DNA of 56,948 nucleotides from Secundilactobacillus hailunensis (GTDB lineage Bacteria; Bacillota; Bacilli; Lactobacillales; Lactobacillaceae). This document shows positions 8,521-53,092 of the stretch, piece by piece. The translations under genes were made by a program, and so were the position numbers. The stretch is from the NCBI RefSeq assembly GCF_005405185.1, contig NZ_BJDO01000011.1:1-56948 (forward strand), given 5' to 3'. Each line of letters starts with the position of its first letter. Position 1 is the stretch's first letter. The notes below the pieces were generated by a model that was not told the DNA's origin, ran no database searches, and saw nothing but the letters and a program-made list of their open reading frames with translations.

Positions 8521-9213
8521 ATGGCAAATTTAGTAGTCGATTCAGCGTTTTGGAAACTATTTCCAGACGCACAGATCAGTGCGTTGTCCGTTCACGGACT
8601 GAATAACACCGTTGACGAGACAAGAAAGCCGCATTTCCAAGCGTTGTTAAATGACGCGATGGACAAGTCCCGCCAGTATTTAACGGCCAATCCGTTTCGT
8701 AGTAATCCAGTGGTTGCGCAATGGCGCGAGGCTTACACGAAATTCAAGAAGAAGCGGGGTGCTCGCTCATCGATCGAAGCATTACTGAAACGGGTCGATC
8801 AGGGGAAAAGCCTTTCACCAATCAACCCCTTAGTCGATGTGTATAACAGTGTTTCTCTGGAATTTGGTGTCCCTTGCGGCGGCGAAAATTTGGCGGCGAT
8901 GGCCGGCCCGATGCATCTGGGCGTTGCCAAAGGTGGCGAAGCCTTTAAACCGCTGGGTGAAGACGAGGACGAACCAGCCCTGCCAGGCGAAGTGATCTAC
9001 TATGATCAGATCGGTGCGATTTGTCGCTGCTTTAATTGGCGCGATGGTGAACGCACGATGCTAACTAATCAGACCACGGATGCGATTTTAGTAATTGAAG
9101 CTATTAATCAAGAACAGCGCGTGCGCCAGGCTGAAGCGGTGACCGCGATGAAGGCGCGGATCAAAGCTGAATTTGGTGTTGATGCTGAAGTTGACGCGTT
9201 GACGGCTGAATAA
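8521..9213 (+). CDS. B3/B4 tRNA-binding-domain protein
   Basis: The 230-residue protein resembles the stand-alone B3/B4 domain of phenylalanyl-tRNA synthetase beta chain (PheT). Supporting segments are YTKFKKKRGARSSIEALLKR near residue 68, NPLVDVYNSVSL near 100 and PCGGENLAAM near 117. Stand-alone members are often linked to editing of mischarged tRNA, but substrate and activity are not established. ATG 8521 is preferred to a 51-codon extension that would cover the intergenic region; only a weak AGGGTGTGA lies before it. It ends at the terminator shared in type with the pdx locus. Confidence 0.8.
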   Translation: MANLVVDSAFWKLFPDAQISALSVHGLNNTVDETRKPHFQALLNDAMDKSRQYLTANPFRSNPVVAQWREAYTKFKKKRGARSSIEALLKRVDQGKSLSPINPLVDVYNSVSLEFGVPCGGENLAAMAGPMHLGVAKGGEAFKPLGEDEDEPALPGEVIYYDQIGAICRCFNWRDGERTMLTNQTTDAILVIEAINQEQRVRQAEAVTAMKARIKAEFGVDAEVDALTAE

Positions 9214-9225
9214 ATAATTTTAAAT

Positions 9226-9273
9226 AATAAGTGCCCAGTTTCATCTTTTGTGATGAGACTGGGCACTTATTTT
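9226..9273. terminator. Bidirectional terminator, copy 1 of a pair flanking the pdx locus
   Basis: AAGTGCCCAGTTTCATC pairs with GATGAGACTGGGCACTT. A near-identical copy ends the pdxT side at 12340-12383. Confidence 0.9.
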
Positions 9274-9297
9274 AGTTGAATAAAGCAACGGTTAAGT

Positions 9298-12318: not shown

Positions 12319-12339
12319 AATGATATAGCTTAAATGATT

Positions 12340-12383
12340 AGTGCCCAGTTTCATCATTTTTTGATGAGACTGGGCACTTATTC
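12340..12383. terminator. Bidirectional terminator, copy 2 of the pair flanking the pdx locus
   Basis: AGTGCCCAGTTTCATC and GATGAGACTGGGCACT form a perfect stem like the one at 9226-9273, with a different loop. Confidence 0.9.
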
Positions 12384-13841
12384 TTAATCATTTATTTTTC
12401 TTATAATTCCCCGGTTCTTGCTGATTAACAAGACACCCCAGACAATTGCGATAAGGCCAATGACTAAGAAGTAGGCCGCTTCGTGTCCCTTGGTATAAAA
12501 GTTGGCGGCGATTGCTGACAGGCCGGATCCGGCAGCTTGTGAAAGGGTGAAAATGGTCATCATTTGCGTCATAAATGCGGTGGGGGCGACCTCACTGGCC
12601 ATTGCCCGGCCAACTGGGGACGTGAAGGTTTCACCAGCGATGATCAGCGCGTAGAAAGTGATGATCCATAATGGCGATACTTTAACGTTGCTCGGAAAAA
12701 GGGATAATGGTAGAACCATAAATAGTGGGCCAGCACCCCAAAGCAGCAGGCCGATGCCAAACTTTAAGCCGTCATTGGGCTGATGAGACCCCAGTTTACC
12801 CCAGATTTGGCTGCTAATGGTGCCAAATAAAACGGCGAAAACGGCTGGGAACGTTTGAAAACTGGCAGCGGAGAGATGGATTCCCCAGACGGTTAAATTA
12901 ACGTGGTCCAGCGTATAAAGTGAGAGTATCCCGGTTGCCTGACCGGAGACCAGCATGCTGATGGTTGTCCCAATCAGGAAAATACCATACGTTTTAACGC
13001 GGCTAGCTTCCCGGTGCGTTACCTTAGGGCTGCGAACAATTTTAAGCACGTATCCCACCGGCAAGACGATGCCAATGAGACCAACAGCACTGCTGAAACT
13101 TTTGGCGGTCAACCAGCCTAGATGGATGAGTATTCCGACTAAAATGATGACTATCGCAGTGATTACCAGTAACCGTTTTGCTAGCAGGCGGCGTTCTGAC
13201 GGTTGCATCGGGTCTGGTGGCACCATACCGAGATCACCGAAGTAACGATGATTCAAGAAAATGTAGGGCAGAGTCGTCAGTAATAGTACAACGACGGCCA
13301 CTAAAAAGCCGGCGTTGTAGCCAAATTTCAGTGCCACGGCACCGGTAATGATCGGCCCCGCCGCACCTACGTTATTCATGATGTAGATCAGGGTAAACGC
13401 CGTATTGCGCATGGTGCCCATTTGCCGATAGATCAGGCCTACTAGGGCGTAGAGGCTTTGCCCGGTGATACCGGAAGCAATGATCTGCAGGGCCAAACTC
13501 GTGAAGAACAGGGGCAGTCCGCCATGGGGTACGACGAGTAACGAGATGGCCACGACGTTCAGCAGGGTCCCGTACAGATACGGTTTGCGCAGCCCAATCA
13601 GCCGATCAGCGGCGTAACTGCCAGCGATACCGGCGAAGTAGCCCAGTGAAGAGAACACCGCCATGATCTGGGTAGCGGTGATGCGGTCGATCTCCAAACC
13701 GCCAAGATGCAGCGGTTCGTAAAGATATAAAATCATGATGGCGCTGACGGCGTAGGTTGCGAACCCGGACCCCAGTGCGGCTAACGCCATTAATCGAAAT
13801 GACTTTGGTTGTTTTGTGCCAATGCTTTTCTGGTTTGCCAA
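12384..13841 (-). CDS. POT-family proton-dependent peptide transporter
   Basis: The 485-residue membrane protein has about 12-14 hydrophobic helices. Features of the peptide:H+ symporter (PTR2/POT) family are GYFAGIAGSYAADRLIGLRK in the first third and IYIMNNVGAAGPIITGAV near residue 145. It is expected to take up di- and tripeptides across the cytoplasmic membrane. The start is a TTG at 13841 with AGGGG nine bases upstream; no ATG lies nearby in frame. It is convergent with pdxT. Confidence 0.88.
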   Translation of the reverse strand: MANQKSIGTKQPKSFRLMALAALGSGFATYAVSAIMILYLYEPLHLGGLEIDRITATQIMAVFSSLGYFAGIAGSYAADRLIGLRKPYLYGTLLNVVAISLLVVPHGGLPLFFTSLALQIIASGITGQSLYALVGLIYRQMGTMRNTAFTLIYIMNNVGAAGPIITGAVALKFGYNAGFLVAVVVLLLTTLPYIFLNHRYFGDLGMVPPDPMQPSERRLLAKRLLVITAIVIILVGILIHLGWLTAKSFSSAVGLIGIVLPVGYVLKIVRSPKVTHREASRVKTYGIFLIGTTISMLVSGQATGILSLYTLDHVNLTVWGIHLSAASFQTFPAVFAVLFGTISSQIWGKLGSHQPNDGLKFGIGLLLWGAGPLFMVLPLSLFPSNVKVSPLWIITFYALIIAGETFTSPVGRAMASEVAPTAFMTQMMTIFTLSQAAGSGLSAIAANFYTKGHEAAYFLVIGLIAIVWGVLLISKNRGIIRKIND

Positions 13842-16945: not shown

Positions 16946-16974
16946 TCGAAAATGAGCTATAGCCATGCTATAAT
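16946..16974 (+). promoter_or_regulatory. Promoter of the antisense RNA
   Basis: TCGAAA at 16946-16951 is followed after exactly 17 bases by a perfect TATAAT (16969-16974). Transcription should begin near 16981. Confidence 0.7.
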
Positions 16975-16980
16975 GTGGTT

Positions 16981-17099
16981 AAGAAAAAGGAAGCCCTGAG
17001 CGAACAGGACTTCCCGTGTAGAGCCGTTAAAGACGGTGGCATAACTTAATACGATTAAATAACCGCTAGCTCTGCCAAGCTAAGGCGGTTATTTTTTTT
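16981..17099 (+). ncRNA. Antisense RNA antitoxin of a type I locus
   Basis: An RNA of about 120 bases is predicted from promoter to terminator. It folds into hairpins GGAAGCCCTG/CAGGACTTCC (about 16990-17014), CCGT/ACGG (17024-17036) and the terminator AATAACCGC/GCGGTTATT with eight T residues. Its 3' part overlaps the last bases and terminator of the small toxin gene on the other strand. This tail-to-tail arrangement is known from RatA/txpA-type systems. The segment GTAGAGCCGTTAAAGACGGT is, from memory, common in lactobacillus loci of this type. Confidence 0.7.
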
Positions 17100-17193
17100 G
17101 TTGATTTTTAATCAACTCAACAATTAATGCAATGAGGGCCACGATAAAAGTACCGAAAGCCAACATTAATTGTAAAGCGTCCGATACGGACAC
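17089..17193 (-). CDS. Type I toxin, Hol_Tox (holin-like) family, 34 residues
   Basis: The peptide begins MSVSDALQLMLAFGTFIVAL and continues as one hydrophobic helix ending in a short lysine-rich tail (KNQQKK). This is the pattern of the putative holin-like toxins that insert in the membrane. Start GTG 17193 has AAAGGAGT seven bases upstream. The mRNA begins from a TATAAT (about 17300-17305 on the minus strand), giving a leader of about 100 bases. The leader segment TAAGGCGGT is exactly complementary to the terminator region at the 3' end, so the full-length mRNA may be folded into an untranslated form. Confidence 0.82.
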   Translation of the reverse strand: MSVSDALQLMLAFGTFIVALIALIVELIKNQQKK

Positions 17194-17320
17194 TTAGGCT
17201 ACTCCTTTCGCTAGGATTTATGGGCTTTAAAGGTTTAACACCATAAGCACCATCTCCAATCGGAAATAGCCACCGCCTTAATTTCTCTACAAAAATTAAT
17301 TATACAGGAGGAATAAAAAA

Positions 17321-34395: not shown

Positions 34396-35274
34396 TTAAT
34401 CGTTTTCCTTCAGCCAGTTATCCAGTACGCTAATAAATTCGTCGTGCTGATCCAGTAAGGCCAGGTGGCGACTATTTTCGAACAAGTGCCATTTAGCACC
34501 CGGAATATGATCATAGACGGACTTAGCAATGAGCGGTGTACATAAGTCATCCGTCCCATTAGTGACTAAAACGGGCACGTGAATTTTATGCAGGTCATCG
34601 GTCACGTCGTAATCGCTGATTGTCCCGTTTTCGGTAAATTCGTTAGGACCTTCAGCGATTAAACTAGCGCGCTTCCCGTTGGTTTCCCGACGCAGTGGTT
34701 CTGGTGAGTTTTCGTCGGGATCATCCCAGCAATAACGTTCCATGTAGCGGTCATTGGCAGCTAAGTATTTTGGACCGGTAAAGTCGCCGGTGCGCTCAGC
34801 TTCGGCAATCGCTTCGCGGTCTTCGTAGCTTAAGTAGGAAATTAAACGGTGCTGCTCTTTCGTCCAGAGCTTAATTGAAGCCGGGGAGCCATCGATCATG
34901 ACACTCTTGACCCCAGTTTGGTCGTATTGCGTCAGGTAGAGCATTTCCAGCATACCGCCCCATGATTGACCCAGCATATGGATTTGGTCCAAGTGCAAGT
35001 ATTTTCGCAGTGCAATCAGTTCTTCTGCCCAGGTTTCCTTAACGTAGACGCTTTTATCTTCCGGTAATGACGATTTACCGCAGCCAACTTGGTCGTACAT
35101 GATCAGCTGACGGCCAGTTTCGGCGTAGTCATCCAGCAATTCAAAATAGTTGTGAGATGAACCGGGACCACCGTGAATTAGCAGTAGTGGTGCCTTTCCA
35201 GGTGTTTTTTCACCCACGATACGATAGTAGGTTTTGTAGCCGTGAAATGGCATGTAGCCTTCCTTGATCTTCAT
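34396..35274 (-). CDS. Prolyl aminopeptidase (proline iminopeptidase)
   Basis: The 292-residue alpha/beta hydrolase of peptidase family S33 has the oxyanion motif LLLIHGGPGSSH (near residue 30) and the nucleophile serine in LGQSWGGML (near 103). The acid is in TNGTDDLCTP and the histidine in FENSRHLAL near the end. It removes N-terminal proline from peptides in the cytoplasm, completing casein peptide use. AAAGGGG lies 11 bases before the ATG. A long hairpin element separates it from the amidohydrolase upstream. Confidence 0.9.
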   Translation of the reverse strand: MKIKEGYMPFHGYKTYYRIVGEKTPGKAPLLLIHGGPGSSHNYFELLDDYAETGRQLIMYDQVGCGKSSLPEDKSVYVKETWAEELIALRKYLHLDQIHMLGQSWGGMLEMLYLTQYDQTGVKSVMIDGSPASIKLWTKEQHRLISYLSYEDREAIAEAERTGDFTGPKYLAANDRYMERYCWDDPDENSPEPLRRETNGKRASLIAEGPNEFTENGTISDYDVTDDLHKIHVPVLVTNGTDDLCTPLIAKSVYDHIPGAKWHLFENSRHLALLDQHDEFISVLDNWLKEND

Positions 35275-35384
35275 TGTTTATCGATCCCCTTTGTTATGTA
35301 GTTTCACTATCGATTGTACTCCTGATTTTGGTGGGTGTTGAGGGGCTTTGGGTGGTTGGTGGATTTATTTTACGTAGCTGAAAC

Positions 35385-35500
35385 GTGCAAAAACGGGCAT
35401 GCCCCGGCCATATAAGACAAAAAAACGAGTACCAGTCAAAAACCGACCGGTACTCGTTTTTTCGTCTTATATTCTGGGGCATTAACGCTCGTTTTTACAC
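35385..35500 (-). terminator. Long stop-codon hairpin element A
   Basis: A hairpin of about 116 bases starts two bases after the amidohydrolase TAG. On the minus strand the left arm runs GTGTAAAAACG...GCCCCAGAATATAAGAC...GAGTACCGGTC and the right arm mirrors it. It shares layout and bases with elements B and C. Arms hold about 45 pairs. Confidence 0.85.
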
Positions 35501-35501
35501 T

Positions 35502-36446
35502 CTACTTCTTTAACAACTCCTGCCCATTTTTCATAAAGATCCGCTGTTTCAACGCATCTGAAAGTAGGCCAGTAGTTTCCAGCTGTTTAGTTAATGATAA
35601 TACCGCTGGGGTTGGCGTATATGGTGTATCTGAAGCATACAACAATTTATTTGGATCGATCAATTCCAGCAAAGTTGGCAATTGCTGTGGCAGAACCATA
35701 CCAGCTACATCAAAGTACTGATTACTCATCACACTCATGATATCAACTTGATCATCAGTTAAATCATGGTTTAAGGCCTGCGTTAGATATTGGACTCGGC
35801 TTGCAACGATTGGTAGCACCGCACCCGCGTGAGGAATAATGAAGCGGATGTTTGGATAACGAGTGAAGATACCATTTTGCAGCATGTTTAAGACCGTTCG
35901 CGTGGTATCAAAGAAGAACTCCACGATTGGTGCTGGGATCTGGCTAGTAACCGTTGGATCTTCGACACCAGGCGCGTTGGGATGCAAAGCTACGATGGCA
36001 TGGTTGTCATCCAACGTCTGCATGATTGGATCAAGACGCTTATCGCCGAGGTAAATGCCGCGGGAGTTCGTTGGCAACGTGAACCCGGTAGCGTCATCAG
36101 CTAAAGCATCCTTGATTGCTTTTTGGCTGGCCTCCACGTATGGCAGTGGTAATGAAGCGAAGAAGCCAATCTTATCTTTATAATTTTGGTGTTGCTTAGC
36201 GGCGTATTCGTTAACTTCCTGCGCTAATTCAATGGTGCTGGATTTTTCACCGGTGTTGATGTGCGGTGACGAAATCGAAATGACAGAATAGTCAATGTTA
36301 ACTTGATCCATGATGGAAAGGGTCGTATCAATGGTGTATTCAGGCGTTGGCACACCATCACCCATGTCGTTGAACTGGTCTTTCAAATACTTCTTGTAAC
36401 CAGGTGAGAGATAGTGAGCGTGAAAGTCGATTTTGTGATAAGTCAT
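35502..36446 (-). CDS. ACMSD-type amidohydrolase
   Basis: The 314-residue metal-dependent TIM-barrel protein belongs to the amidohydrolase_2 group, related to aminocarboxymuconate-semialdehyde decarboxylase. Metal and catalytic positions are seen in IDFHAHYLS (HxH, residue 8-10), IVALHPNAPG (near 150), FIIPHAGAVLP (near 203) and YASDTPYTP (near 270). Members decarboxylate or hydrolyse aromatic and keto acids. It is 13 bases downstream of the alpha/beta hydrolase gene and forms an operon with it, under the divergent TetR protein. AGGAGG lies nine bases before ATG 36446. Confidence 0.86.
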   Translation of the reverse strand: MTYHKIDFHAHYLSPGYKKYLKDQFNDMGDGVPTPEYTIDTTLSIMDQVNIDYSVISISSPHINTGEKSSTIELAQEVNEYAAKQHQNYKDKIGFFASLPLPYVEASQKAIKDALADDATGFTLPTNSRGIYLGDKRLDPIMQTLDDNHAIVALHPNAPGVEDPTVTSQIPAPIVEFFFDTTRTVLNMLQNGIFTRYPNIRFIIPHAGAVLPIVASRVQYLTQALNHDLTDDQVDIMSVMSNQYFDVAGMVLPQQLPTLLELIDPNKLLYASDTPYTPTPAVLSLTKQLETTGLLSDALKQRIFMKNGQELLKK

Positions 36447-36459
36447 CTATAAAAACCTC

Positions 36460-37299
36460 CTATAATAAAACTGCTTCTAGCGTCGTTGCGAAACCTTCTG
36501 GCTTTTGAGCATAGCCCAAGTGACCGCCAGGAATATCGTAAATCGGTAGGTGCCAGTAGTTAGCCAGAAAAGCATTCACATCTTGTGGATAAGAACCAAC
36601 TGAATCGGTCCCATTAAGTAAATGAATTCGATCACTGTACTTAGCCAGCTTATCGATATCCATTTCACGGCTGGTATATTGACGGATCTCATACTGGAAC
36701 CAGTACTTCATGCCAGCAACGGCTGGGTCGTCATTACCGCTTAATGAAACGGCTGGTTTAGTCATCATTTTAGCATCTAAGTCACCAATGCGCATGGTTT
36801 GACCAAACTTTTTCATGGCGACACCCATATCCTGGTTAAAAGCTTCTTTGACGATTTCGTCATTATCAGCCTGATCCTTTTTGACAGTCGGTAAGAAGCT
36901 GTTGATTGGCGGTTCGTGGAAAGCAGCGCCTTTGATAATGTCTGGATAATCCTGCAGGGTTTCCATGGCGACGATTGAACCGGAACTAGAACCCATGATG
37001 TAAACGGGGTCGTTGGGGCTAAGCTTTTTAGCTAAGGCGGCCACGTCACTGGCATCTGTCTTCAAACGGTAAGTGCTGTGAATTTCGGATGCTTCATCTG
37101 GCAGCGGTTCAGTTAATTTACTGTTACCGTAACCGCGACGGTCATAGGTGACCACGGTAAACTTGTGCTGTAAGAACTTGGCAGCCCCTTGGAAGATGTT
37201 GCCGGTACCGTTAGCACCTGGAATTAAGATCAAAACGGGGCCGTTATTACCCGTTACGTTGTAGTCTAAGTTTGTACCAGTTTGGTTTAATGTTGTCAT
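36460..37299 (-). CDS. Alpha/beta hydrolase
   Basis: The 279-residue hydrolase has the oxyanion segment LILIPGANGTGNIFQ, VTYDRRGYGNS, the nucleophile serine in IMGSSSGSIVAME and the histidine in IPGGHLGYA. It is soluble and cytoplasmic. The substrate is unknown, but pairing with the amidohydrolase suggests a short catabolic or detoxifying route for an ester or ring-cleavage product. ATG 37299 is eight bases after AAAGGAG and is preferred to a TTG two codons earlier. Its promoter has an operator exactly between -35 and -10. Confidence 0.85.
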   Translation of the reverse strand: MTTLNQTGTNLDYNVTGNNGPVLILIPGANGTGNIFQGAAKFLQHKFTVVTYDRRGYGNSKLTEPLPDEASEIHSTYRLKTDASDVAALAKKLSPNDPVYIMGSSSGSIVAMETLQDYPDIIKGAAFHEPPINSFLPTVKKDQADNDEIVKEAFNQDMGVAMKKFGQTMRIGDLDAKMMTKPAVSLSGNDDPAVAGMKYWFQYEIRQYTSREMDIDKLAKYSDRIHLLNGTDSVGSYPQDVNAFLANYWHLPIYDIPGGHLGYAQKPEGFATTLEAVLL

Positions 37300-37352
37300 A
37301 TTCAAGACTCCTTTGATTGATTTAAGACTTGCTGAATCCAGTGATTTAAGAT

Positions 37353-37414
37353 AAACTCATGTCATGAGTTTTGAACTGTAAATGTATTATAAACTCATAC
37401 CATGAGTTTTGCAA
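37353..37414. promoter_or_regulatory. Twin TetR operators and hydrolase promoter
   Basis: AAACTCATG-T-CATGAGTTT (37353-37371) is a perfect palindrome, and AAACTCATACCATGAGTTT (37391-37409) is a near copy 38 bases away. On the minus strand TTGCAA, 17 bases, TATAAT forms a strong promoter for the hydrolase, and the second operator fills that spacer. Repression by the divergent TetR protein is inferred. Confidence 0.8.
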
Positions 37415-37430
37415 GCGAGGAGATTAAAAA

Positions 37431-37979
37431 ATGAAACGTGGACAATTATCCCGTGAGATCATCTTAGAAAAGGGGCTGGCAATCGCCAGTGAATCGGGGC
37501 TAAATGGCATTACCTATAATGGTTTAGCTCGCGATATTGGTATTCGGCCGCAGTCGATGTACCGGTACGTCAAGGATATTGCTACCGTTAAAAGCGGCAT
37601 TGTGGCGTTGTACGTTCAGCAATTAGTCACCTATTTAAAGCAGCAACTGAGTAAATTAACGGGCAAATCTGCGCTGCGACAGCTAGCGGTTGCCTTTATT
37701 GACTTCACTCAATCGGGAATGCCGTTTACTGATATGGTGTGGGGAATCTCTTATTATAGCGACGAAGCACCGGTAGCGGATGCCATGGCACAATTGCGGC
37801 AGTTGACTCAGGGACTGGTTGCTGAGGTGAGCGCGGACGAAAAATTGGTAAAGGCGAATACGGCCCTCTTTTTAGAATTTGTGATCGGTCATCTGGCACT
37901 GCTGACGGCCAGAAAAGAACCACAACGCGATCAGACGATTTTTGACCAGAACGTTGACCGGATCATTGATCAATTTTAG
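37431..37979 (+). CDS. TetR-family regulator
   Basis: The 182-residue protein has a TetR helix-turn-helix (residues 8-50, GITYNGLARDIGIRPQSMYRYV) and a WHG/TetR_C_33-like ligand domain. AGGAG lies nine to ten bases before ATG 37431. It is divergent from the hydrolase-amidohydrolase operon and shares with it two strong palindromes, so it probably represses both that operon and itself. The inducer is unknown. Confidence 0.88.
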   Translation: MKRGQLSREIILEKGLAIASESGLNGITYNGLARDIGIRPQSMYRYVKDIATVKSGIVALYVQQLVTYLKQQLSKLTGKSALRQLAVAFIDFTQSGMPFTDMVWGISYYSDEAPVADAMAQLRQLTQGLVAEVSADEKLVKANTALFLEFVIGHLALLTARKEPQRDQTIFDQNVDRIIDQF

Positions 37980-38073
37980 CGAGGGCAATGGCTGGAAATG
38001 CTAGGGATCGTATCGTAAAATGGTCTTAGTGATTTTGTACACAATACAGGGTGAAGGTATGGTGAGGCCAATC

Positions 38074-38601
38074 ATGGCAGATTCAGTGGTTCAGTTAACA
38101 ACGGCAGATGTGGCAAAGCTGCAAATGGTCAGTCAAGAAACGTTCAAAGATACTTTTGGAGCCTATAATACGGATGATGATATGGACTGGTATCTTAATA
38201 ATCAGCTCAGCATTCAACGGCTTGAAGAACAGCTCCAAACTGAGAATTCCTTTTTCTACTTTTTGGAAAAGAATCATCAGGTCGTGGGTTATCTGAAGCT
38301 AAATATTAATGATGCTCAGTCAGAAGATCAGGGCAAAGACGCCCTAGAAGTTGAGCGAATCTATGTCCGTCCAGACTATAAACGATTGGGGTATGGCCGT
38401 CAGTTAATGGATTATGCAGTGACGCGCGCCTATCAGCTGGATAAAAAATTTGTTTGGTTAGGCGTGTGGGAGTATAACCATGCTGCTCAAAAATTTTATG
38501 CGGCGTTAGGGTTTAGCGAATTTGGCGATCACTTGTTTACATTGGGTGGTGCCCGGCAGCGCGATGTGCTGATGAAAAAGGAATTGAGAGCGAGAGTGTA
38601 A
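38074..38601 (+). CDS. PaiA-like GNAT acetyltransferase
   Basis: The 175-residue protein resembles Bacillus PaiA, a polyamine (spermidine/spermine) N-acetyltransferase. Seen are ETFKDTFGAYN, LKLNINDAQSEDQGKDALEV, the acetyl-CoA loop YKRLGYGRQLM and WLGVWEYNHAAQKFYAALGF. Two starts are possible: ATG 38074 (GTGAGG upstream) and ATG 38059 (GTGAAGG upstream). I prefer the first because the usual family N-terminus begins close to it. The stop codon lies inside long hairpin element B. Confidence 0.82.
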   Translation: MADSVVQLTTADVAKLQMVSQETFKDTFGAYNTDDDMDWYLNNQLSIQRLEEQLQTENSFFYFLEKNHQVVGYLKLNINDAQSEDQGKDALEVERIYVRPDYKRLGYGRQLMDYAVTRAYQLDKKFVWLGVWEYNHAAQKFYAALGFSEFGDHLFTLGGARQRDVLMKKELRARV

Positions 38602-38711
38602 CAAGAGGCGTTGTGCCCCAGAGTATAAGACGAAAAAACAAGTACCGGTCGGTTTTTGACTGGTGCTTGTTTTTTCGTCTTATACGGCCGGGGCATGCCG
38701 ACTTGTTGCAC
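38596..38711 (+). terminator. Long stop-codon hairpin element B
   Basis: The left arm GTGTAACAAG...TGCCCCAGAGTATAAGACG...AAGTACCGGTC pairs with the right arm over about 45 positions around TTTTT. The TAA of the acetyltransferase gene is part of the arm. It is homologous to element A with many paired changes. A shared tail GCACGTTT...TAAAA continues to about 38728. Confidence 0.85.
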
Positions 38712-38846
38712 GTTTAGACAAGGTAAAAGTAACGAACCACAATGGTCTCCCCGGGCTTTCCTAAAATTATCATCGTTTTCCCCTCAAAACACTAATCGAT
38801 AACGGTAAAATAAAAGAAGTATTCTATGTAAAAGGGGAGAGCAACA

Positions 38847-40184
38847 ATGAACACGCAAAAACTAAGCAGTCGCAACCTAATCGTCATCGGCATGATGCTG
38901 TTTGGCCTCTTTTTTGGCGCGGGTAATTTGATTTTTCCCGTCTTTGTTGGCCAACAAGCTGGGACCCATTACTGGCCAGCCTTAATCGGTTTTTTAATTT
39001 CGGGAGTTGGACTGCCGCTGTTAGGCGTAGCCGCCATCGGGATTACGAAATCGGCGGGTGTTTTTCAATTGGCGCAGCGAGTTAACCGGTTTTACGCCTA
39101 TGGGTTCACCGTTTTACTGTATCTCTGTATTGGGCCACTATTTGCGTTACCGCGCCTGGCTTCAATTTCCTTTGAAGTGGGATTAAGCCCATTTGTGGCA
39201 CCGGCCCATCAAACTAGTGGGCTGCTGATCTATTCCATACTGTTCTTCCTAGCTGCTTGGTGGTTTGCCCGTAAGCCCGGTAAAATTATGGTCTACGTTG
39301 GCCAGTTTTTAACGCCAGCGTTTTTGATCTTACTGGCGGCCATTTTGATCTTAGTGGTGGTCAAACCCATGGGTAGCGGTCAAGCACCAGTTGGCGATTA
39401 CGTAAAGAGTCCAATCGTAGCAGGTTTTACAGCCGGCTATTCCACGATGGACGCCTTGGCAGCCTTAGCGTTTGGCATTATCGTGGTCAATGCTATTCGG
39501 GGATTAGGGATCACCGAGCCCACGCGAATCGCCGGTGATACCGTTCGAGCTGGCAGTATTGCAATCGTTTTGATGGCACTGATATACGGTTTGCTGGGCC
39601 TATTGGGACGCAATGCGTTAGGACAATTCAGCCGGGCCGCGAACGGTGGACCGGTATTAGCTAACGTTGCCCACTATTATTTTGGTGATTTTGGAAACTT
39701 ACTGTTAGCCTTGCTGGTAATTTTAGCGTGCTTGAAAACGGCAATTGGTCTCATAACAGCGTTTGGTGATACGTTTAAAGAATTGTTTCCCCGCGTACCT
39801 TACGCGGCATTGATTATTTTTGCCAGTGCCACGCCGTTGATCTTTGCAAACATCGGCTTAAACCGATTATTGACCTTTTCGACACCGCTACTGTACTTCA
39901 TTTATCCACTGGCCATTACGCTGATTTTAATGAGCTTACTGACCCCCATTTTAGGGGATTCGCGCTGGCTATTTGGCACGGTAACTATTTTTACGCTGAT
40001 TCCAGCATTGCTAGATGGGTTAAATGCTTTGCCAGCTAATCTGCATCAGGGCTGGATCAATAGTATCTTAACGGTTGGTCACTTACTGCCGGGCTTTAGC
40101 ATGGGCCTTGGCTGGACGGTGCCTTCATTGATTGGTCTAGCAGTCGGCTGGGGCTTGTCGGTGACGGTTGGTCGCCGCAATTAA
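38847..40184 (+). CDS. brnQ: Branched-chain amino acid transport carrier (LIVCS family)
   Basis: The 445-residue protein has about 12 helices and the family start LFFGAGNLIFPVFVGQQAG near residue 20. The segments ATPLIFANIGLNRLLTFS and MDALAALAFGIIVVNAIRG are also typical. It imports leucine, isoleucine and valine with sodium or protons. AAAAGGGGAG lies eight bases before the ATG. Monocistronic, closed by a strong terminator. Confidence 0.94.
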   Translation: MNTQKLSSRNLIVIGMMLFGLFFGAGNLIFPVFVGQQAGTHYWPALIGFLISGVGLPLLGVAAIGITKSAGVFQLAQRVNRFYAYGFTVLLYLCIGPLFALPRLASISFEVGLSPFVAPAHQTSGLLIYSILFFLAAWWFARKPGKIMVYVGQFLTPAFLILLAAILILVVVKPMGSGQAPVGDYVKSPIVAGFTAGYSTMDALAALAFGIIVVNAIRGLGITEPTRIAGDTVRAGSIAIVLMALIYGLLGLLGRNALGQFSRAANGGPVLANVAHYYFGDFGNLLLALLVILACLKTAIGLITAFGDTFKELFPRVPYAALIIFASATPLIFANIGLNRLLTFSTPLLYFIYPLAITLILMSLLTPILGDSRWLFGTVTIFTLIPALLDGLNALPANLHQGWINSILTVGHLLPGFSMGLGWTVPSLIGLAVGWGLSVTVGRRN

Positions 40185-40191
40185 GGGCAAA

Positions 40192-40227
40192 GAAAAAAGC
40201 ATTACGACCAGTGTCGTAATGCTTTTA
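40192..40227. terminator. Terminator between convergent genes
   Basis: AAAAAGCATTACGAC and GTCGTAATGCTTTT form a near-perfect stem with a short loop. Confidence 0.9.
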
Positions 40228-40248
40228 TAATCAAAGTTAGAGTTCAGT

Positions 40249-40893
40249 TTATAAAGCCCAGGCACCCATACCTTGTGCTTTGTAAAGTGAAACTGCAGCG
40301 TTCACTTGGGCGTTTACATCGCCGCCGTTAATGTGCATGTTTTGGAACAGACCGTAAGCACCAGATGAACTGTTACGGATGTTTGAGTTCCAGCCTGATT
40401 CACGGGTGATGATGGCGTTCCAAGTAGAAGCGGGAACACCGGTCCGTGAAGCCATTTGGCTCAAGACGTAGCTCTTAGTGCTGCCACCGTTGGTACTTGC
40501 TGCACCAGTGTTGCTAGTGGTTTGAGCAGCAGCCGTGTTAGTGTTGTTTGACTGTGCTTGGTAACCACTGTAGTTGCTGGTTTGGCTTTGAGTGTTGCCA
40601 GTATATGCTGAAGTTGATTGACTAGTAGCTGCTGGTTGAGTAGCAGTGGTTTGACTAGTCGTTGAGCCATCAGGGATCGTTAAGTTTTCACCGGGGTGAA
40701 TCATGTGAGCACTGATGTGGTTTGCTTGTTCGATTGAGTTCATCGAAGTATGGAAGATCTGTGAGATGCCCCATACTGAGTCACCTGACTTAACGGTGTA
40801 AGTCGTAGATGCGCTAGCGCCGGTTGCGCCAGCAAAGAACAATGCGACAGCTGCTGCGGATGTTGCTAAGATTGAAGTAACAAATTTTTTCAA
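40249..40893 (-). CDS. Secreted LysM protein, APF / transglycosylase-like
   Basis: The 214-residue protein has a signal peptide (residues 1-28, cleavage after ASA), a LysM peptidoglycan-binding domain (about 30-75, [17 protein letters not shown]), a Ser/Thr/Gln/Asn-rich linker (76-145), and a C-terminal lysozyme-like domain ([20 protein letters not shown] to the end GAWAL). This is the layout of lactobacillus aggregation-promoting factors, abundant wall proteins. The start is TTG 40893, nine bases after AGGAG. The long upstream gap suggests a long mRNA leader. Confidence 0.88.
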
Positions 40894-41380
40894 GTATATA
40901 CACTCCTATAATTTAAACCTGTAAGGTCCATCAATGTGTCGATTCATATCAATCAACAAAACTGAGTTTACATGGTTGGTATTACCTGGACGTATCACAG
41001 GTTTTAAGAAAATAAGTCACTATGCAACAAGAAATCAGGCTTTTGTAATATTTGAAATATTAAAGGTTCCATTAAGCAAAACGTATAAACGGGGTAGCTT
41101 CGAGTAAAGTCAACGCTTCCAAAATCAGTTATAGCTGAGGTAGATGTTAAATATATTACTGAAAAATGAATTTTAGAAACATAAAGGCCACTTGAAAATG
41201 TCAAAAAAGGGTTGATCTAAAAAAGATTGCCAGACATATTTCTAGAATACTATGATGAGGGATACTATATATTGTGGTAATATTGGAAAATTCTTTCGGA
41301 TTTCACACAATATATGGTTGCAGTGCGTGATGCAAGCCTATATTATGAACTTATGGCACTAAAAAATTGGAGTGATCGGA
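40894..41380. other. Divergent promoter region of the LysM gene and nrdD
   Basis: The left part is the probable long leader of the LysM gene; I see no riboswitch consensus there. The right part holds two NrdR boxes before nrdD. A 66-codon minus-strand frame at 41004-41204 has no ribosome site and is not accepted as a gene. Confidence 0.5.
41262..41320 (+). promoter_or_regulatory. Two NrdR boxes upstream of nrdD
   Basis: ATACTATATATTGTGG (41262-41277) and ACACAATATATGGTTG (41305-41320) resemble NrdR boxes. Their starts are 43 bases apart, about four helical turns. The first is almost identical to the second box of nrdJ. Confidence 0.72.
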
Positions 41381-43579
41381 ATGCAGGAACCAAAAGAACT
41401 AACGATTGAAACGTTAACAGTTCTCAAACGGGATGGTCGTGCCGTTAAGTTCGATACCAAAAAAATCGAACGGGCAATCAAACGCGCCGCTATCTCAGTG
41501 AATTCAGAACTAACAGATGAAGACCAGCACGCCATTGATGACGTGGTGGACGCTGTTTTGACTGAAATCAGCAGTCGCTTCAAAGAAAACGTCAAGATTT
41601 ACGAAATTCAAAGTATTGTAGAACATGAATTAATGGAACGTCAGCAGCTTGACTGGGCAAAAGCCTACATTAATTATCGGGCGCAAAAGGATCTCAAACG
41701 CAATCAAGCCACTGATATTAACTTTACGATTCAGAAACTGCTACATAAAGATGAGACAGTGGTCAACGAAAACGCCAATAAAGATAGTAACGTTTTTAAT
41801 ACGCAACGTGATCTAACGGCCGGCACGGTTGCTCGAACCATGGGGCTTAAAATGCTGCCACCGAAAGTTGCTAATGCGCACTTGAAGGGTGATATTCACT
41901 GGCATGATCTGGATTACCAGCCGTACAGTCCAATGACGAACTGCTGTCTGATTGATTTTAAAGAAATGCTGAATCACGGCTTTAAAATCGGTAACGCGGA
42001 GGTTGAACCGCCGCATTCGATCCAAACCGCCACGGCCCAAATGTCACAGATCATTGCTAACGTGGCTTCTAGTCAGTACGGTGGCTGTTCCGCTGACCGG
42101 GTCGATCAATTACTGGCACCATTTGCGCTGCGTAACTACGACAAGCACATGGTTGATGCTAAGGAATGGATCAAGGGCGAAGACAACCAAAAAGCCTTTG
42201 CTAAACAAAAGACGATCAAAGATATCGATGACGCCATGCAGGCTTTGGAATACGAAATCAACACGCTGTACTCATCTCAAGGACAGACGCCATTTACCAC
42301 ACTGGGGTTTGGCCTGGGCACTAGCTGGGTCGAACGAGAGATTCAAAAGGCCATTCTACACGTTCGAATTGAAGGTTTAGGTAAGGAGAAGCGAACGGCG
42401 ATCTTTCCGAAACTTGTCTTTACCATTAAACGCGGCTTGAATTTGAAGCCGGAAGATCCCAACTATGATATTAAGGAACTGGCTGTGGAATGTGCTACTA
42501 AGCGGATGTACCCCGACGTTTTAATGTACGATAAACTTGTTGAACTGACCGGTTCATTTAAAGCACCAATGGGCTGCCGCAGTTTTCTGCAGGGCTGGAA
42601 GGATGAAAATGGCAAGGAAGTCAACGCTGGGCGGATGAACCTAGGTGTTGTGACCCTGAACCTGCCTCGTATCGCGCTGGAATCAAAGGGTGATCAGGAT
42701 AAATTCTGGTCAATCTTGAAGGAACGTCTAAGCATCTGCAAAGAAGCCTTAGTCTTCAAGGTTAACCGCGCAAAGCAAGCCACACCGCAAAACGCACCGA
42801 TTCTGTATCAATACGGTGCTTTCGGCAAACGTCTGAAGCCAACTGATTCCGTGGACGAACTGTTTAAGAACCGCCGCGCAACGGTGTCACTGGGCTACAT
42901 TGGGCTTTACGAAGTTGGAACGGTTTTCTATGGGCCAACTTGGGAACACAATCCGGAAGCCAAACAGTTTACGGTCGATGTGGTTAAGAAACTCTATACC
43001 AGCTGCAAAGCCTGGGAGAATCAGTACGGTTATCACTTCAGTGTTTATGCCACACCTGCTGAAAGTCTGACCAACACCTTCTGCCAAGCTGATATCAAAA
43101 AGTTTGGTCGGGTCAAGGACGTGACGGATAAGGAATACTATACCAATAGCTTCCATTATGATGTCCGAAAAGCACCAACGCCATTTGAGAAGATCGATTT
43201 TGAAAAGGATTACCCGCCATACAGTGCCGGTGGGTTCATCCACTATTGCGAATATCCTAACTTAAAGCAAAACCCCAAGGCGCTAGAAGCTGTCTGGGAT
43301 TACGCTTATGACCGTATCGGTTATTTAGGAACCAACACCCCAATCGATCAATGCTTCAAGTGCGGCTTCAAGGGTGAATTTAAACCAACTGCTCGGGGTT
43401 TTTCCTGCCCGAAGTGTGGCAACACGGATCCGGCTACCTGTGACGTGGTCAAGCGGACTTGCGGTTATCTCGGTAACCCGAACCAGCGGCCAATGGTCCA
43501 TGGCCGGCACGTTGAAATTGCCAGCCGGGTCAAGCACATGACGTTAGGTAACGATCAAAACAACATTGCAAGACAGTAA
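41381..43579 (+). CDS. nrdD: Anaerobic ribonucleoside-triphosphate reductase (class III)
   Basis: The 732-residue glycyl-radical enzyme makes deoxyribonucleotides without oxygen. An ATP-cone lies at residues 10-100 (VLKRDGRAVKFDTKKIERAI). NCCLIDFKEMLNHG near 190 holds conserved cysteines. The C-terminal zinc site has CFKCG and CPKCG, and the radical glycine is in RTCGYLGNP near 708. ATG 41381 follows GGAG by eight bases; an upstream GTG overlaps that site. nrdG begins 10 bases after its stop. NrdR boxes lie upstream. Confidence 0.96.
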   Translation: MQEPKELTIETLTVLKRDGRAVKFDTKKIERAIKRAAISVNSELTDEDQHAIDDVVDAVLTEISSRFKENVKIYEIQSIVEHELMERQQLDWAKAYINYRAQKDLKRNQATDINFTIQKLLHKDETVVNENANKDSNVFNTQRDLTAGTVARTMGLKMLPPKVANAHLKGDIHWHDLDYQPYSPMTNCCLIDFKEMLNHGFKIGNAEVEPPHSIQTATAQMSQIIANVASSQYGGCSADRVDQLLAPFALRNYDKHMVDAKEWIKGEDNQKAFAKQKTIKDIDDAMQALEYEINTLYSSQGQTPFTTLGFGLGTSWVEREIQKAILHVRIEGLGKEKRTAIFPKLVFTIKRGLNLKPEDPNYDIKELAVECATKRMYPDVLMYDKLVELTGSFKAPMGCRSFLQGWKDENGKEVNAGRMNLGVVTLNLPRIALESKGDQDKFWSILKERLSICKEALVFKVNRAKQATPQNAPILYQYGAFGKRLKPTDSVDELFKNRRATVSLGYIGLYEVGTVFYGPTWEHNPEAKQFTVDVVKKLYTSCKAWENQYGYHFSVYATPAESLTNTFCQADIKKFGRVKDVTDKEYYTNSFHYDVRKAPTPFEKIDFEKDYPPYSAGGFIHYCEYPNLKQNPKALEAVWDYAYDRIGYLGTNTPIDQCFKCGFKGEFKPTARGFSCPKCGNTDPATCDVVKRTCGYLGNPNQRPMVHGRHVEIASRVKHMTLGNDQNNIARQ

Positions 43580-43589
43580 GGATGACAAT

Positions 43590-44174
43590 ATGCCGACAAA
43601 AAAAGTGAGATTACCCAATAACCCGCAACCGAAAGAATGGTTGGCGGATGATTTAAGTGAACAGCGGATTGCCAGCTATAAACCCTTTAACTTCGTTGAT
43701 GGCGAAGGGGTGCGTTGCAGTTTGTACGTGAGCGGCTGTAAGTTCAACTGCCCAGGTTGCTACAATAAAGTCGCCCAATCCTTTCATTTTGGGACGCCCT
43801 ATACGCAAGAACTGGAAGACCAGATCATTGAAGATCTCAGCCAGTCTTACGTTCAGGGGTTGACCTTATTGGGTGGTGAACCATTTTTAAATACCCAGGT
43901 CTGTCTCCGTCTGTGCCAGCGGGTTCGCAAAGAATTCGGCCATGACAAGGATATCTGGAGCTGGACGGGGTATAAATGGGAAGAACTCATGAAGGAATCT
44001 GACGACAAGAAGGAACTGCTCAGTCTGATCGATATTTTGATCGATGATAGATTCCTGCAGTCCAAAATGGATCTGACCCTCCAATTTCGGGGGAGCAGTA
44101 ACCAGCGGATCATTAACGTGCCTGAATCGTTGAAAAGTGGTCAGGTTGTGATTTGGGATAGATTAGTGAAGTAG
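43590..44174 (+). CDS. nrdG: Anaerobic ribonucleotide reductase activating protein
   Basis: The 194-residue radical SAM protein puts the glycyl radical on NrdD. The 4Fe-4S motif CX3CX2C reads SGCKFNCPGCYN (near residue 48), and GLTLLGGEPFLN (near 87) is the SAM-contact segment. ATG 43590 follows AAGGATG; a longer frame overlaps the end of nrdD and is less likely. The TAG stop is followed after one base by long hairpin element C, the likely operon end. Confidence 0.95.
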   Translation: MPTKKVRLPNNPQPKEWLADDLSEQRIASYKPFNFVDGEGVRCSLYVSGCKFNCPGCYNKVAQSFHFGTPYTQELEDQIIEDLSQSYVQGLTLLGGEPFLNTQVCLRLCQRVRKEFGHDKDIWSWTGYKWEELMKESDDKKELLSLIDILIDDRFLQSKMDLTLQFRGSSNQRIINVPESLKSGQVVIWDRLVK

Positions 44175-44175
44175 A

Positions 44176-44285
44176 GTGTGAAACAACACGGGTTGATTCC
44201 AGAATATAACAACAAAAAGCGGGTTCCCCGATTTTGGGAACTCGTTTTTTGTCGTTATATGGCCGGAATCAGTGTTGTGAAGCAC
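44176..44285 (+). terminator. Long stop-codon hairpin element C
   Basis: The left arm GTGTGAAACAACAC...GATTCCAGAATATAAC...GGGTTCCC pairs with the right arm GGGAACTCG...GTTATATGGCCGGAATC...GTGTTG. The layout and CCAGAATATAA core match elements A and B while many stem bases differ. The tail GCACGTTTTGACAAGCTAAAA follows. Confidence 0.82.
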
Positions 44286-44407
44286 GTTTTGACAAGCTAA
44301 AATTACTCCATCATGCCCTAACCTGCATTATTTTCCCCAAACAACTTATGTTTCTATCAAAAGTGTAGTAAGCTAGAAAAAGTAAAAAATTCGGGGAGGA
44401 CAAAAAA

Positions 44408-51635: not shown

Positions 51636-51788
51636 ACCACGCTCCTTTATCGAACTTATCTCCATTATTATAACGCATTTTAAAGGCAGTGCGACAACCA
51701 CTGTTCACCGAGTGTGGCAAAGGTGTATTGCAATCCTAGTTCAGAGCGGAGTATGCTGGTTTTAAATAACAATAAGGTGGCGTCTGCA

Positions 51789-52940
51789 GTGGAGAATACT
51801 GAAAAAATTGCGATATTACAAAAACTGATTCAAATTAAGTCGGTCAATGGTAATGAGGCCGCCGTTGCACGCTACATCGCTTCGTTATTTGCGCCTTATG
51901 AGCACCGGGCTAAGGTGGAAGCTGTTACTTATGCACCCGATCGTGATAATCTGGTGGTCACGATTGGTGATCCTGAGGGGCGACAGCTGGGCTTTTCCGG
52001 TCATGAAGACGTGGTGGATCCCGGTGATATCAGCGCTTGGCACCATGACCCATTTGCGGGTGAAATCGTCGATGGTAATCTGTATGGCCGTGGCGCTTCG
52101 GATATGAAATCTGGGCTGGCGGCGGTCGTGATCGCCATGCTGGAACTGCTTGAGGATGACGTGCCATTGAACGGCTCGATTCGCCTGCTGGCAACGGTGG
52201 GTGAAGAGACCGGTGAATACGGTGCTGCCCAGCTAACCAAGGGTGGTTACGCGGATCAGCTGGCTGGCTTGGTCATTGCAGAGCCAACTGGGTTAGACAA
52301 AATTGCCTACACCTCTCGTGGGGTGATCGACTACCATGTTGATTCGATCGGTAAATCGGTGCACAGCGCCCAGTCGTCTAAGGGCATCAATGCCATCGAT
52401 AATCTGATTGTCTTCTATAATGAAGTGACGGCTATCATGCAGCAGTTTGATAAGATCGACCCGGTACTGGGCGGTCTGCTGCACAACGTGGATTTGATCT
52501 CTGGTGGCGAGCAAATCAACAGTATTCCAGGTAAGGCTCGCTTATCAGCCAACGTGCGAACCATTCCGGCGTACCCGAACCAATTGATCTATGATACACT
52601 GGAAAAGCTTGTCCATCGCTTAAATGACCGGTCTGGCTTCCAATTGAAATTATCATACAGTTACCCGGAAGAGGCGATCCCTGGCCGGGCGGATGCACCG
52701 TTAGTTAAATTAGCCCAGAAAATCGGTCACCGCATCGTCGGTAACCGCGTAATGCCAGTGGGCGCTGGCGGTGCCAGTGACGCCTCGGAATTTTTACGGG
52801 CCAACGCTCGCTTTTCAGCAATCGTTTATGGACCGGGGACCGATACGTCTCACGAAGCGGATGAGTATGTTGAAGTTGAGCAATTTTTACAGGCAACGGT
52901 ACTGTATCGGAAGCTGGCGCTGGCGTTTTTGGCGGGGTGA
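51789..52940 (+). CDS. ArgE/DapE-family deacylase (M20 metallopeptidase)
   Basis: The 383-residue di-zinc hydrolase has the M20 ligands in FSGHEDVVDPGD, YGRGASDMKSGLAA, VGEETGEYG and IAEPTG, and the final His in SHEADEYV. A dimerisation domain lies at about 170-285. Members remove acyl groups from amino acids (acetylornithine, succinyl-diaminopimelate) or act as dipeptidases; the substrate here is open. A longer frame from 51714 is possible, but GTG 51789 has AAGGTGG eight bases upstream and gives the usual N-terminus. Confidence 0.88.
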   Translation: MENTEKIAILQKLIQIKSVNGNEAAVARYIASLFAPYEHRAKVEAVTYAPDRDNLVVTIGDPEGRQLGFSGHEDVVDPGDISAWHHDPFAGEIVDGNLYGRGASDMKSGLAAVVIAMLELLEDDVPLNGSIRLLATVGEETGEYGAAQLTKGGYADQLAGLVIAEPTGLDKIAYTSRGVIDYHVDSIGKSVHSAQSSKGINAIDNLIVFYNEVTAIMQQFDKIDPVLGGLLHNVDLISGGEQINSIPGKARLSANVRTIPAYPNQLIYDTLEKLVHRLNDRSGFQLKLSYSYPEEAIPGRADAPLVKLAQKIGHRIVGNRVMPVGAGGASDASEFLRANARFSAIVYGPGTDTSHEADEYVEVEQFLQATVLYRKLALAFLAG

Positions 52941-52974
52941 TATCTTATATTGTCTAATCGGGCTCCAGAAAGCA

Positions 52975-53051
52975 GAGAGCTGCATGTAAGCCCACTATGA
53001 CATAAATCCAAGCCCAGGATTTTTGCCATAGTGGGCTTACACTCCGCTCTC
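52975..53051 (+). terminator. Nested hairpin element D
   Basis: GAGAGC and GTAAGCCCACTATG (52975-52999) pair with CATAGTGGGCTTAC and GCTCTC (53027-53051), with an inner AATCC/GGATT hairpin. It resembles elements A-C in size and in a CTCCAGA before the stem, but the stem sequence is unrelated. Confidence 0.75.
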
Positions 53052-53092
53052 TAAGCGCTTTTCTCCGCACCTTACAATAGGAGGCACTATTC

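Follow-up and report, generated by a model that had tools for sequence, protein, structure and literature searches.

Elements A to D and the repeat family they belong to

The window, a 56,948-nucleotide (nt) stretch of Secundilactobacillus hailunensis DNA that makes up one whole contig, carries four long hairpin elements at gene ends, here called A, B, C and D. They probably belong to a family of small, non-coding, mobile structured elements that act as substitute terminators at the ends of genes. The genome is close to that of S. silagei, in which the protein encoded at 38847-40184 of the window has a 94% identical counterpart.

Element A (35366..35503, minus strand) consists of a head, a nested hairpin and the tail GCACGTTTCAGCTACGTAAAAT, and its inner variable stem, with arms of 28 nt, lies at 35410..35472 (minus strand). 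The amidohydrolase-like gene 35502-36446 ends in a TAG stop codon (35502..35504, minus strand) whose AG is the start of the A head. Element B (38593..38730, plus strand) likewise has an inner variable stem with 28-nt arms (38623..38685, plus strand), and the TAA stop codon of the GNAT-family gene 38020-38601 falls at 38599..38601 (plus strand), within the B head AGAGTGTAA. The head of element C (44173..44304, plus strand; inner stem 44203..44260, plus strand) is overlapped by the TAG stop codon (44172..44174, plus strand) of gene 43566-44174 (Pfam Fer4_12). These three, all of type I as defined below, were recognized by their fold and by a match to the family model. Element D (52941..53073, minus strand) is a fourth copy, of type II, with the head AAGGTGCG and a covariance-model score of 54.9 bits; its tail abuts the stop codon of gene 51714-52940 (plus strand).

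The original prediction, made from the letters of the window, had described A, B and C without D. The three long hairpins it proposed are present: each folds as one long nested hairpin that is much more stable than dinucleotide-shuffled sequences (z scores of -10.4 for A, -12.3 for B and -6.9 for C; none of 200 shuffles folds equally well). A and B are 93% alike across 86 nt, in inverted orientation. The claim that the hairpins start at or within two bases of a stop codon is accurate for A and C, where the stop codon is a T plus the AG of the head, and loose for B, where the TAA lies inside the head. Orientation follows transcription at A, B and C, as predicted for every copy, but not at D, which lies tail first against the stop codon of its neighbor. 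A scan of the window with Rfam at the gathering score gave no match at A, B, C or D, and a relaxed scan of 35200-38800, which takes in A and B, gave sub-threshold matches only, mostly to microRNA models.

The family signature is a constant head, (T)AGAGYGYG, and a tail, YRCGTTT, which together close one long hairpin; the tail GCACGTTT...TAAAA that had been noted at A, B and C is part of this signature. A covariance model built from seven copies of the S. hailunensis genome returned 72 matches there (E up to 10), of which 53 places were taken, opposite-strand twins and rows below ~34.8 bits being left out; 46 of these are additional to the model copies. The model was also run against 20 named genomes with E up to 1e-4 and at most the best 150 candidates per genome scored, so that the following counts may take in weak, opposite-strand and partial matches. 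Further copies are found in eleven Secundilactobacillus species (S. paracollinoides, 114; S. pentosiphilus, 86; S. silagei, 84; S. collinoides, 83; S. similis, 82; S. mixtipabuli, 78; S. angelensis, 76; S. yichangensis, 73; S. folii, 67; S. odoratitofui, 60; S. kimchicus, 29) and in some other genera, i.e., Lacticaseibacillus (L. saniviri, 31; L. hulanensis, 2; L. yichunensis, 2; L. sharpeae, 0; L. mingshuiensis, 0), Lactiplantibacillus nangangensis (19), Loigolactobacillus binensis (10) and Paucilactobacillus vaccinostercus (7), with none in Mesosutterella. The head and tail are present in the L. saniviri, L. nangangensis and L. yichunensis copies that were viewed, those of L. yichunensis being a variant form.

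By our reading, there are three types with a common head and tail and different cores. Type I (A, B and C) has the core CCAGA-TATAA opposite GGCCGG, and type II, to which D and others belong, has stems of the GAGAGC type. Type III, of ~221 bp, begins with the end sequence AGAGTGTGTGACAAAACTC or AAGCTGTGACAAAACTC, continues with the same hairpin and a further tail, and closes with ACTTATGTCACGGCCTC. Its terminal inverted repeats are imperfect (GAGTGTGTGACA and TGTCACGGCCTC) and are confined to this type, types I and II having the internal basal helix alone. Many type III copies are near-identical; there are 13 matches in S. hailunensis, 31-41 in each of six relatives (among at most the best 40 candidates in several of them) and 0-3 in the remaining eight of the 15 genomes.

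Some loci, given here by their L numbers, have tandem whole elements or repeated right halves consisting of the inner right arm, the outer right arm and the tail (L079, L085, L087, L159 and L161). The same sequence resembling an insertion sequence (IS), TCTACCAAAAGACAACCC..., joins the tail directly after CGTTT in four copies and, as a variant, in a fifth (L027, L031, L035, L081 and L079); it seems that an insertion sequence uses the element tail as its target.

Base pairing and placement at stop codons

The paired base changes reported for the stems of A, B and C are real, and the wider alignment has strong covariation, with the shuffling and sliding controls far below. Standard pairs fill 94.1% of pair cells, compared with 61.2% after shuffling and 36.7-45.0% with the partners slid. 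Double changes occur in 44 of 47 pairs, neither this value nor the pairing value is reached in any of 500 shuffles, and the covariation score is 0.705 against 0.181. The alignment (68 matches, 62 distinct rows, a few from the opposite strand) was fitted to the model and is thereby biased towards the structure, yet pairing is also supported by an unfitted search for AGAG-N-G-N-G followed by N-C-N-CGTTT. It recovered 103 hairpin segments. For the most part, their two free head bases pair with the two free bases of the tail, giving the basal helix AGAG-X-G-Y-G/Y'-C-X'-CGTTT: position X is T-A in 63 and C-G in 19 segments, and position Y is T-A in 50, C-G in 20 and T.G in 19. In another 18 segments X is A, apparently through a register slip (AGAGAG). 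Orthologous copies, compared by eye, often differ in both arms of the inner stem and are alike in the outer parts.

Mismatches in the inner stem distinguish the strands. When the two arms were aligned with G.T and A.C penalized alike, the inner stems (within 25 nt of the loop) had 77 G.T and 8 A.C mismatches in S. hailunensis (n = 50, three short copies having been dropped) and 56 G.T and 1 A.C in type III copies (n = 37). The G.T excess speaks for selection on the sense RNA and, together with the covariation, backs the selected RNA structure that the original prediction had offered as one of two possibilities. The ratio is not to be read as a probability, since cells with G.T are related by descent and some may stem from C-to-T changes linked to transcription. 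A.C is equal or commoner in the outer stems (G.T 38 and A.C 33 in S. hailunensis; G.T 2 and A.C 34 in type III), which we attribute to a fixed bulge. Palindrome correction, in which the arms are repaired on each other, is unlikely as the sole cause of the paired changes because it would yield G.T and A.C equally.

The second possibility raised originally, a mobile repeat that targets gene ends, is backed by the many copies at gene ends and by gains in single lineages. In S. hailunensis, a long open reading frame on the same strand ends within -5 to +9 of the head in 31 of the 53 copies, and the tail-side equivalent is seen once, at D. Across a wider set in which orthologues are included, a stop codon lies near the head in 55 of 91 copies and at exactly +2 in 33; at this position, the stop codon is a T plus the AG of the head and ends two bases into it. 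Ordinary terminator-like stems from 12 sequences, a control that retains element stems, have the same placement in 4 of 51 cases. Like the elements, ordinary intrinsic terminators of the same genomes follow the stop codon and have an A-tract and a T-tract, but they are short, show no visible relationship from one viewed locus to the next and start at scattered distances from the stop codon, whereas the elements are in register with it. At B and C, several species retain orthologous copies. Reading of the frames at site B showed that S. folii, which lacks the element, ends the gene at its own TAA, and that the stop codon in S. angelensis is a TGA within the head.

Type III elements in place of ordinary terminators

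We fetched 20 type III copies of S. silagei, from a larger number listed, and found orthologous gene ends in S. hailunensis for 15. In 12 of the 15 pairs, the place taken by the type III element in S. silagei is held in S. hailunensis by an ordinary hairpin terminator (L238, L242, L243, L245, L246, L249, L250, L251, L252, L254, L256 and L257). The left flanks of the two genomes align to 0-7 nt before the element at 11 of the 12 sites and to 20 nt before it at L243, and the right flanks align from 0-5 nt after the element at nine sites, from 17 nt at L251 and from 20 nt at L246. The S. hailunensis stretch between the flanks measures 27-47 nt at ten sites and 63 nt at L246, and is undefined at L257. 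When the arms of the native hairpins were sought in the S. silagei flanks, 22 of 24 were at or below the 95% level of shuffled arms. The clearest swap is L250, where ATATATGTTAAA before and TTTTATGGTTTTTAC after are identical in both genomes and enclose a hairpin of 31 nt in S. hailunensis and the element in S. silagei. Inspection of the 12 swap pairs by eye revealed no target duplication. The reverse swap, with the element in the S. hailunensis lineage, is seen at L026 and L030.

Outgroups were viewed at ten of the 12 swap sites (all but L246 and L257). At each of the ten, an ordinary hairpin is visible by eye in one or more outgroups, and for this reason the hairpin looks ancestral and the type III element appears to have been gained. 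At L250 and L242, a 190-nt view shows S. mixtipabuli with an oppositely oriented type III-like element. The earlier statement that the structure is something other than a simple terminator is half right: young type III elements often occupy the place of intrinsic terminators, and A, B and C hold one internally.

This internal terminator consists of an A-tract, a stem and a T-tract inside the hairpin. A strict scan detected one in 14 of the 46 S. hailunensis copies tested (A, B, C and 11 more) and none in the other 32; it detected a terminator within 100 nt downstream in four copies, and no copy had both. At L022, L023, L028 and L034, S. hailunensis carries type I or II copies, and the empty counterparts in other species carry ordinary terminators. 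The native hairpin was not found downstream of the S. hailunensis element in five of six comparisons, site B of S. folii included. The evidence for replacement is weaker for types I and II because the species compared are more distant.

Copies also resemble each other across loci and appear to recombine. The S. silagei element at site A matches a copy on contig C69 of S. hailunensis at 92% and another S. silagei copy at 87%, compared with 76% for its positional counterpart A. The segment of ~35.5-38.6 kb between the inverted copies A and B (35504..38592) has the reverse orientation in S. pentosiphilus and S. mixtipabuli, its breakpoints falling at or close to A and B. In S. pentosiphilus, an element is present at both ends of the inverted segment; in S. 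mixtipabuli, the B-side copy alone is among the listed matches. Recombination between the inverted copies is the simplest reading.

Other features of the window include Rfam matches to the RatA antitoxin RNA (16971-17061, plus strand) and, adjoining it, the Listeria small RNA rli28 (17124-17314, minus strand), possibly an RNA toxin-antitoxin locus. A second related hairpin pair at 9208-9285 (AAGTGCCCAGTTTCATC) and 12330-12400 (GATGAGACTGGGCACTT) lies directly after the gene ends 9213 and 12318, and is perhaps another spreading terminator. The contig ends, 1-99 and 56850-56948, form a perfect 99-nt inverted repeat, an IS-like break; in S. silagei, a type III element is present at the counterpart of the right end (L244).

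Origin and meaning of the probable mobile terminators

We found no report in the open-access literature that names this family or a terminator-replacing element, an absence that carries little weight. By description, the nearest repeats found are the pneumococcal SPRITE and BOX repeats (PMC3049150). SPRITE folds like a Rho-independent terminator, has AAAA/TTTT ends and is enriched near convergent gene 3' ends. It resembles the present family in being an interspersed repeat with a terminator-like fold near 3' ends. It is, however, one 18-bp duplex, the genome studied holds 30 copies, and no empty site of a comparable kind was found there, whereas the hairpin described here is of ~100 nt, nested and variable, and its empty sites show replacement of a hairpin by an element. 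BOX is described as a structured modular repeat with 125 copies that encodes the stop codon in 36 of 58 overlapping coding sequences, and terminal inverted repeats and target duplications are reported for it (PMC3049150). Compared by description, both are structured and supply stop codons, and the tandem right halves recall the repeated modules of BOX; on the other hand, target duplication was not seen in the present family, and terminator replacement is absent from the BOX account as far as it was available in PMC3049150.

The elements form one family across the genomes compared, with pairing arms, a preferred position at stop codons and lineage-specific gain, and at many type III sites an element apparently replaced a hairpin. 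From their sequences they would be expected to terminate transcription, and A, B and C presumably arrived by replacement, as type III did. A typical copy would be transcribed as the 3' end of the preceding gene, its head often providing or overlapping the stop codon, and head and tail would pair in the mRNA to close the nested hairpin. Type I copies, with their internal A-tract, stem and T-tract, and type III copies, closed by terminal repeats and usually beside T-rich sequence, could both end transcription instead of the native terminator of the gene. We infer that some activity exchanges stem-loops between A-tract and T-tract. Such an exchange is suggested by the lack of visible target duplication or of a linked transposase, by the occurrence of both orientations and by the retention of flanks at A-rich and T-rich tracts. 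At these tracts, the stem-loops would be swapped by an enzyme or through template switching. More tentatively, this may be a new mode of DNA movement, possible although far from established, in which terminators are recognized by their A-tract/stem/T-tract shape: an enzyme, or template switching at hairpin-stalled forks, would drop the native stem-loop, and the mobile structured element would be copied in, in either orientation.

Several observations weigh against these readings. The antisense strands of A, B and C fold about as well as the sense strands (z scores of -10.8, -11.0 and -7.1), and no linked transposase was seen at the loci looked at. Most type II copies have no internal terminator by the strict scan (L047 has one), and at L032, L040 and L044 an ordinary terminator, missed in that scan and seen by eye, follows the element. 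The empty sites of types I and II come from more distant species, L034 is marginal in the native-hairpin test, and that test had no positive control for divergence. Among the type III swaps, the right boundary of L257 was set by eye after the automatic call failed, the right arms of L251 and L243 exceed the shuffled-arm level by one point, and S. silagei retains the base of the native left arm at L251 (AATAACCG) and its A-rich base at L238. The three remaining pairs are not clean swaps: L255 has an element in both genomes (the S. hailunensis copy having lost its inner stem), the S. hailunensis site of L244 is truncated at the end of its contig and L240 is an ambiguous pair. A type III copy follows an intact ordinary terminator at L214, L231 and L255, so replacement is frequent rather than universal.

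These intact terminators would also suit a classical miniature inverted-repeat transposable element (MITE), moved by an unlinked DDE transposase, inserting anywhere and surviving only at gene ends, with native terminators decaying later. Type III is MITE-like (PMC10969869) in its small size, its imperfect terminal repeats and its many near-identical copies; pneumococcal repeats are likewise enriched between convergent genes (PMC3049150), and the MITE review deems termination by MITEs conceivable (PMC10969869). We nevertheless consider this origin unlikely. Compared with MITEs as described there, no target duplication was seen, no partner was found among the insertion sequences examined, and the native stem-loop is gone at many sites. 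The flanks of the native hairpin lead into the element in the 12 swap pairs, and the 22 undetectable native arms include those at young near-identical copies such as L250; decay after insertion would be expected to leave remnants more often. No transposase was recognized beside the ten type III right-end stretches examined. A link to ISL3, suggested by the ends, was tried and rejected, as the DDE_Tnp_ISL3 loci carry none of these ends. Plasmids and phages gave no match to one type II copy, and plasmids gave none to one type III copy.

A regulatory RNA of the 3' untranslated region (UTR), with a function other than termination, e.g., protection from 3' exonucleases, and with its spread secondary, would account for the sense-strand G.T excess, for the type II copies that lack an internal terminator and for the position of L044, L040 and L032 between stop codon and ordinary terminator. 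It leaves the loss of native terminators at type III sites unexplained and is, in our estimation, somewhat less probable still than a MITE.

It is improbable that the family is a REP-like (repetitive extragenic palindrome) element whose single-stranded hairpins are moved by an HUH (Y1) transposase. The imperfect hairpin with fixed bulges, the gene-end position and the GTAG in front of some copies recall the extragenic hairpins of the REP/RAYT (REP-associated tyrosine transposase) system, and a single-strand enzyme would suit hairpin exchange. However, the REPs listed in PMC2817692 (Table 1) are short, ~20-40 nt, and mostly start with GTAG or GTGG, whereas the present element is of ~130 nt and has GTAG in some copies only, where it is a TAG stop codon after a G. 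A scan of eight Y1-containing loci in S. hailunensis with the model revealed no Y1 gene with copies on its flanks; the overlapping loci L100 and L103 are the sole ones near a full copy, which lies ~0.7-0.8 kb off at the stop codon of another gene. A hairpin placed at a stop codon may also recall the attC sites of integrons.

Divergence of ordinary intrinsic terminators in place, without mobility, would fit the stem and T-tract inside A, B, C and 11 further copies and the orthologous copies kept at B and C, but is scarcely credible and already contradicted, since it requires vertical inheritance of type III and is at odds with a head and tail common to ~50 places in the genome, with lineage-specific gain opposite unrelated ordinary hairpins in sister genomes, and with the greater similarity of the S. 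silagei site-A element to other loci than to A.

The usual view of terminators is of fixed parts altered through point mutations. In the genomes compared here, they seem to have given way to a mobile element at numerous gene ends, and not in a single species alone. As substitute terminators, the elements would occupy a nearly harmless selfish niche, and would be a source of new 3' UTRs and, as between A and B, a route to inversion. If stem-loop exchange is true, terminators would be a shared docking site that can be colonized harmlessly by elements bringing their own stop codon and terminator, and an enzyme performing the exchange, should there be one, would select stem-loops for their shape rather than their sequence.

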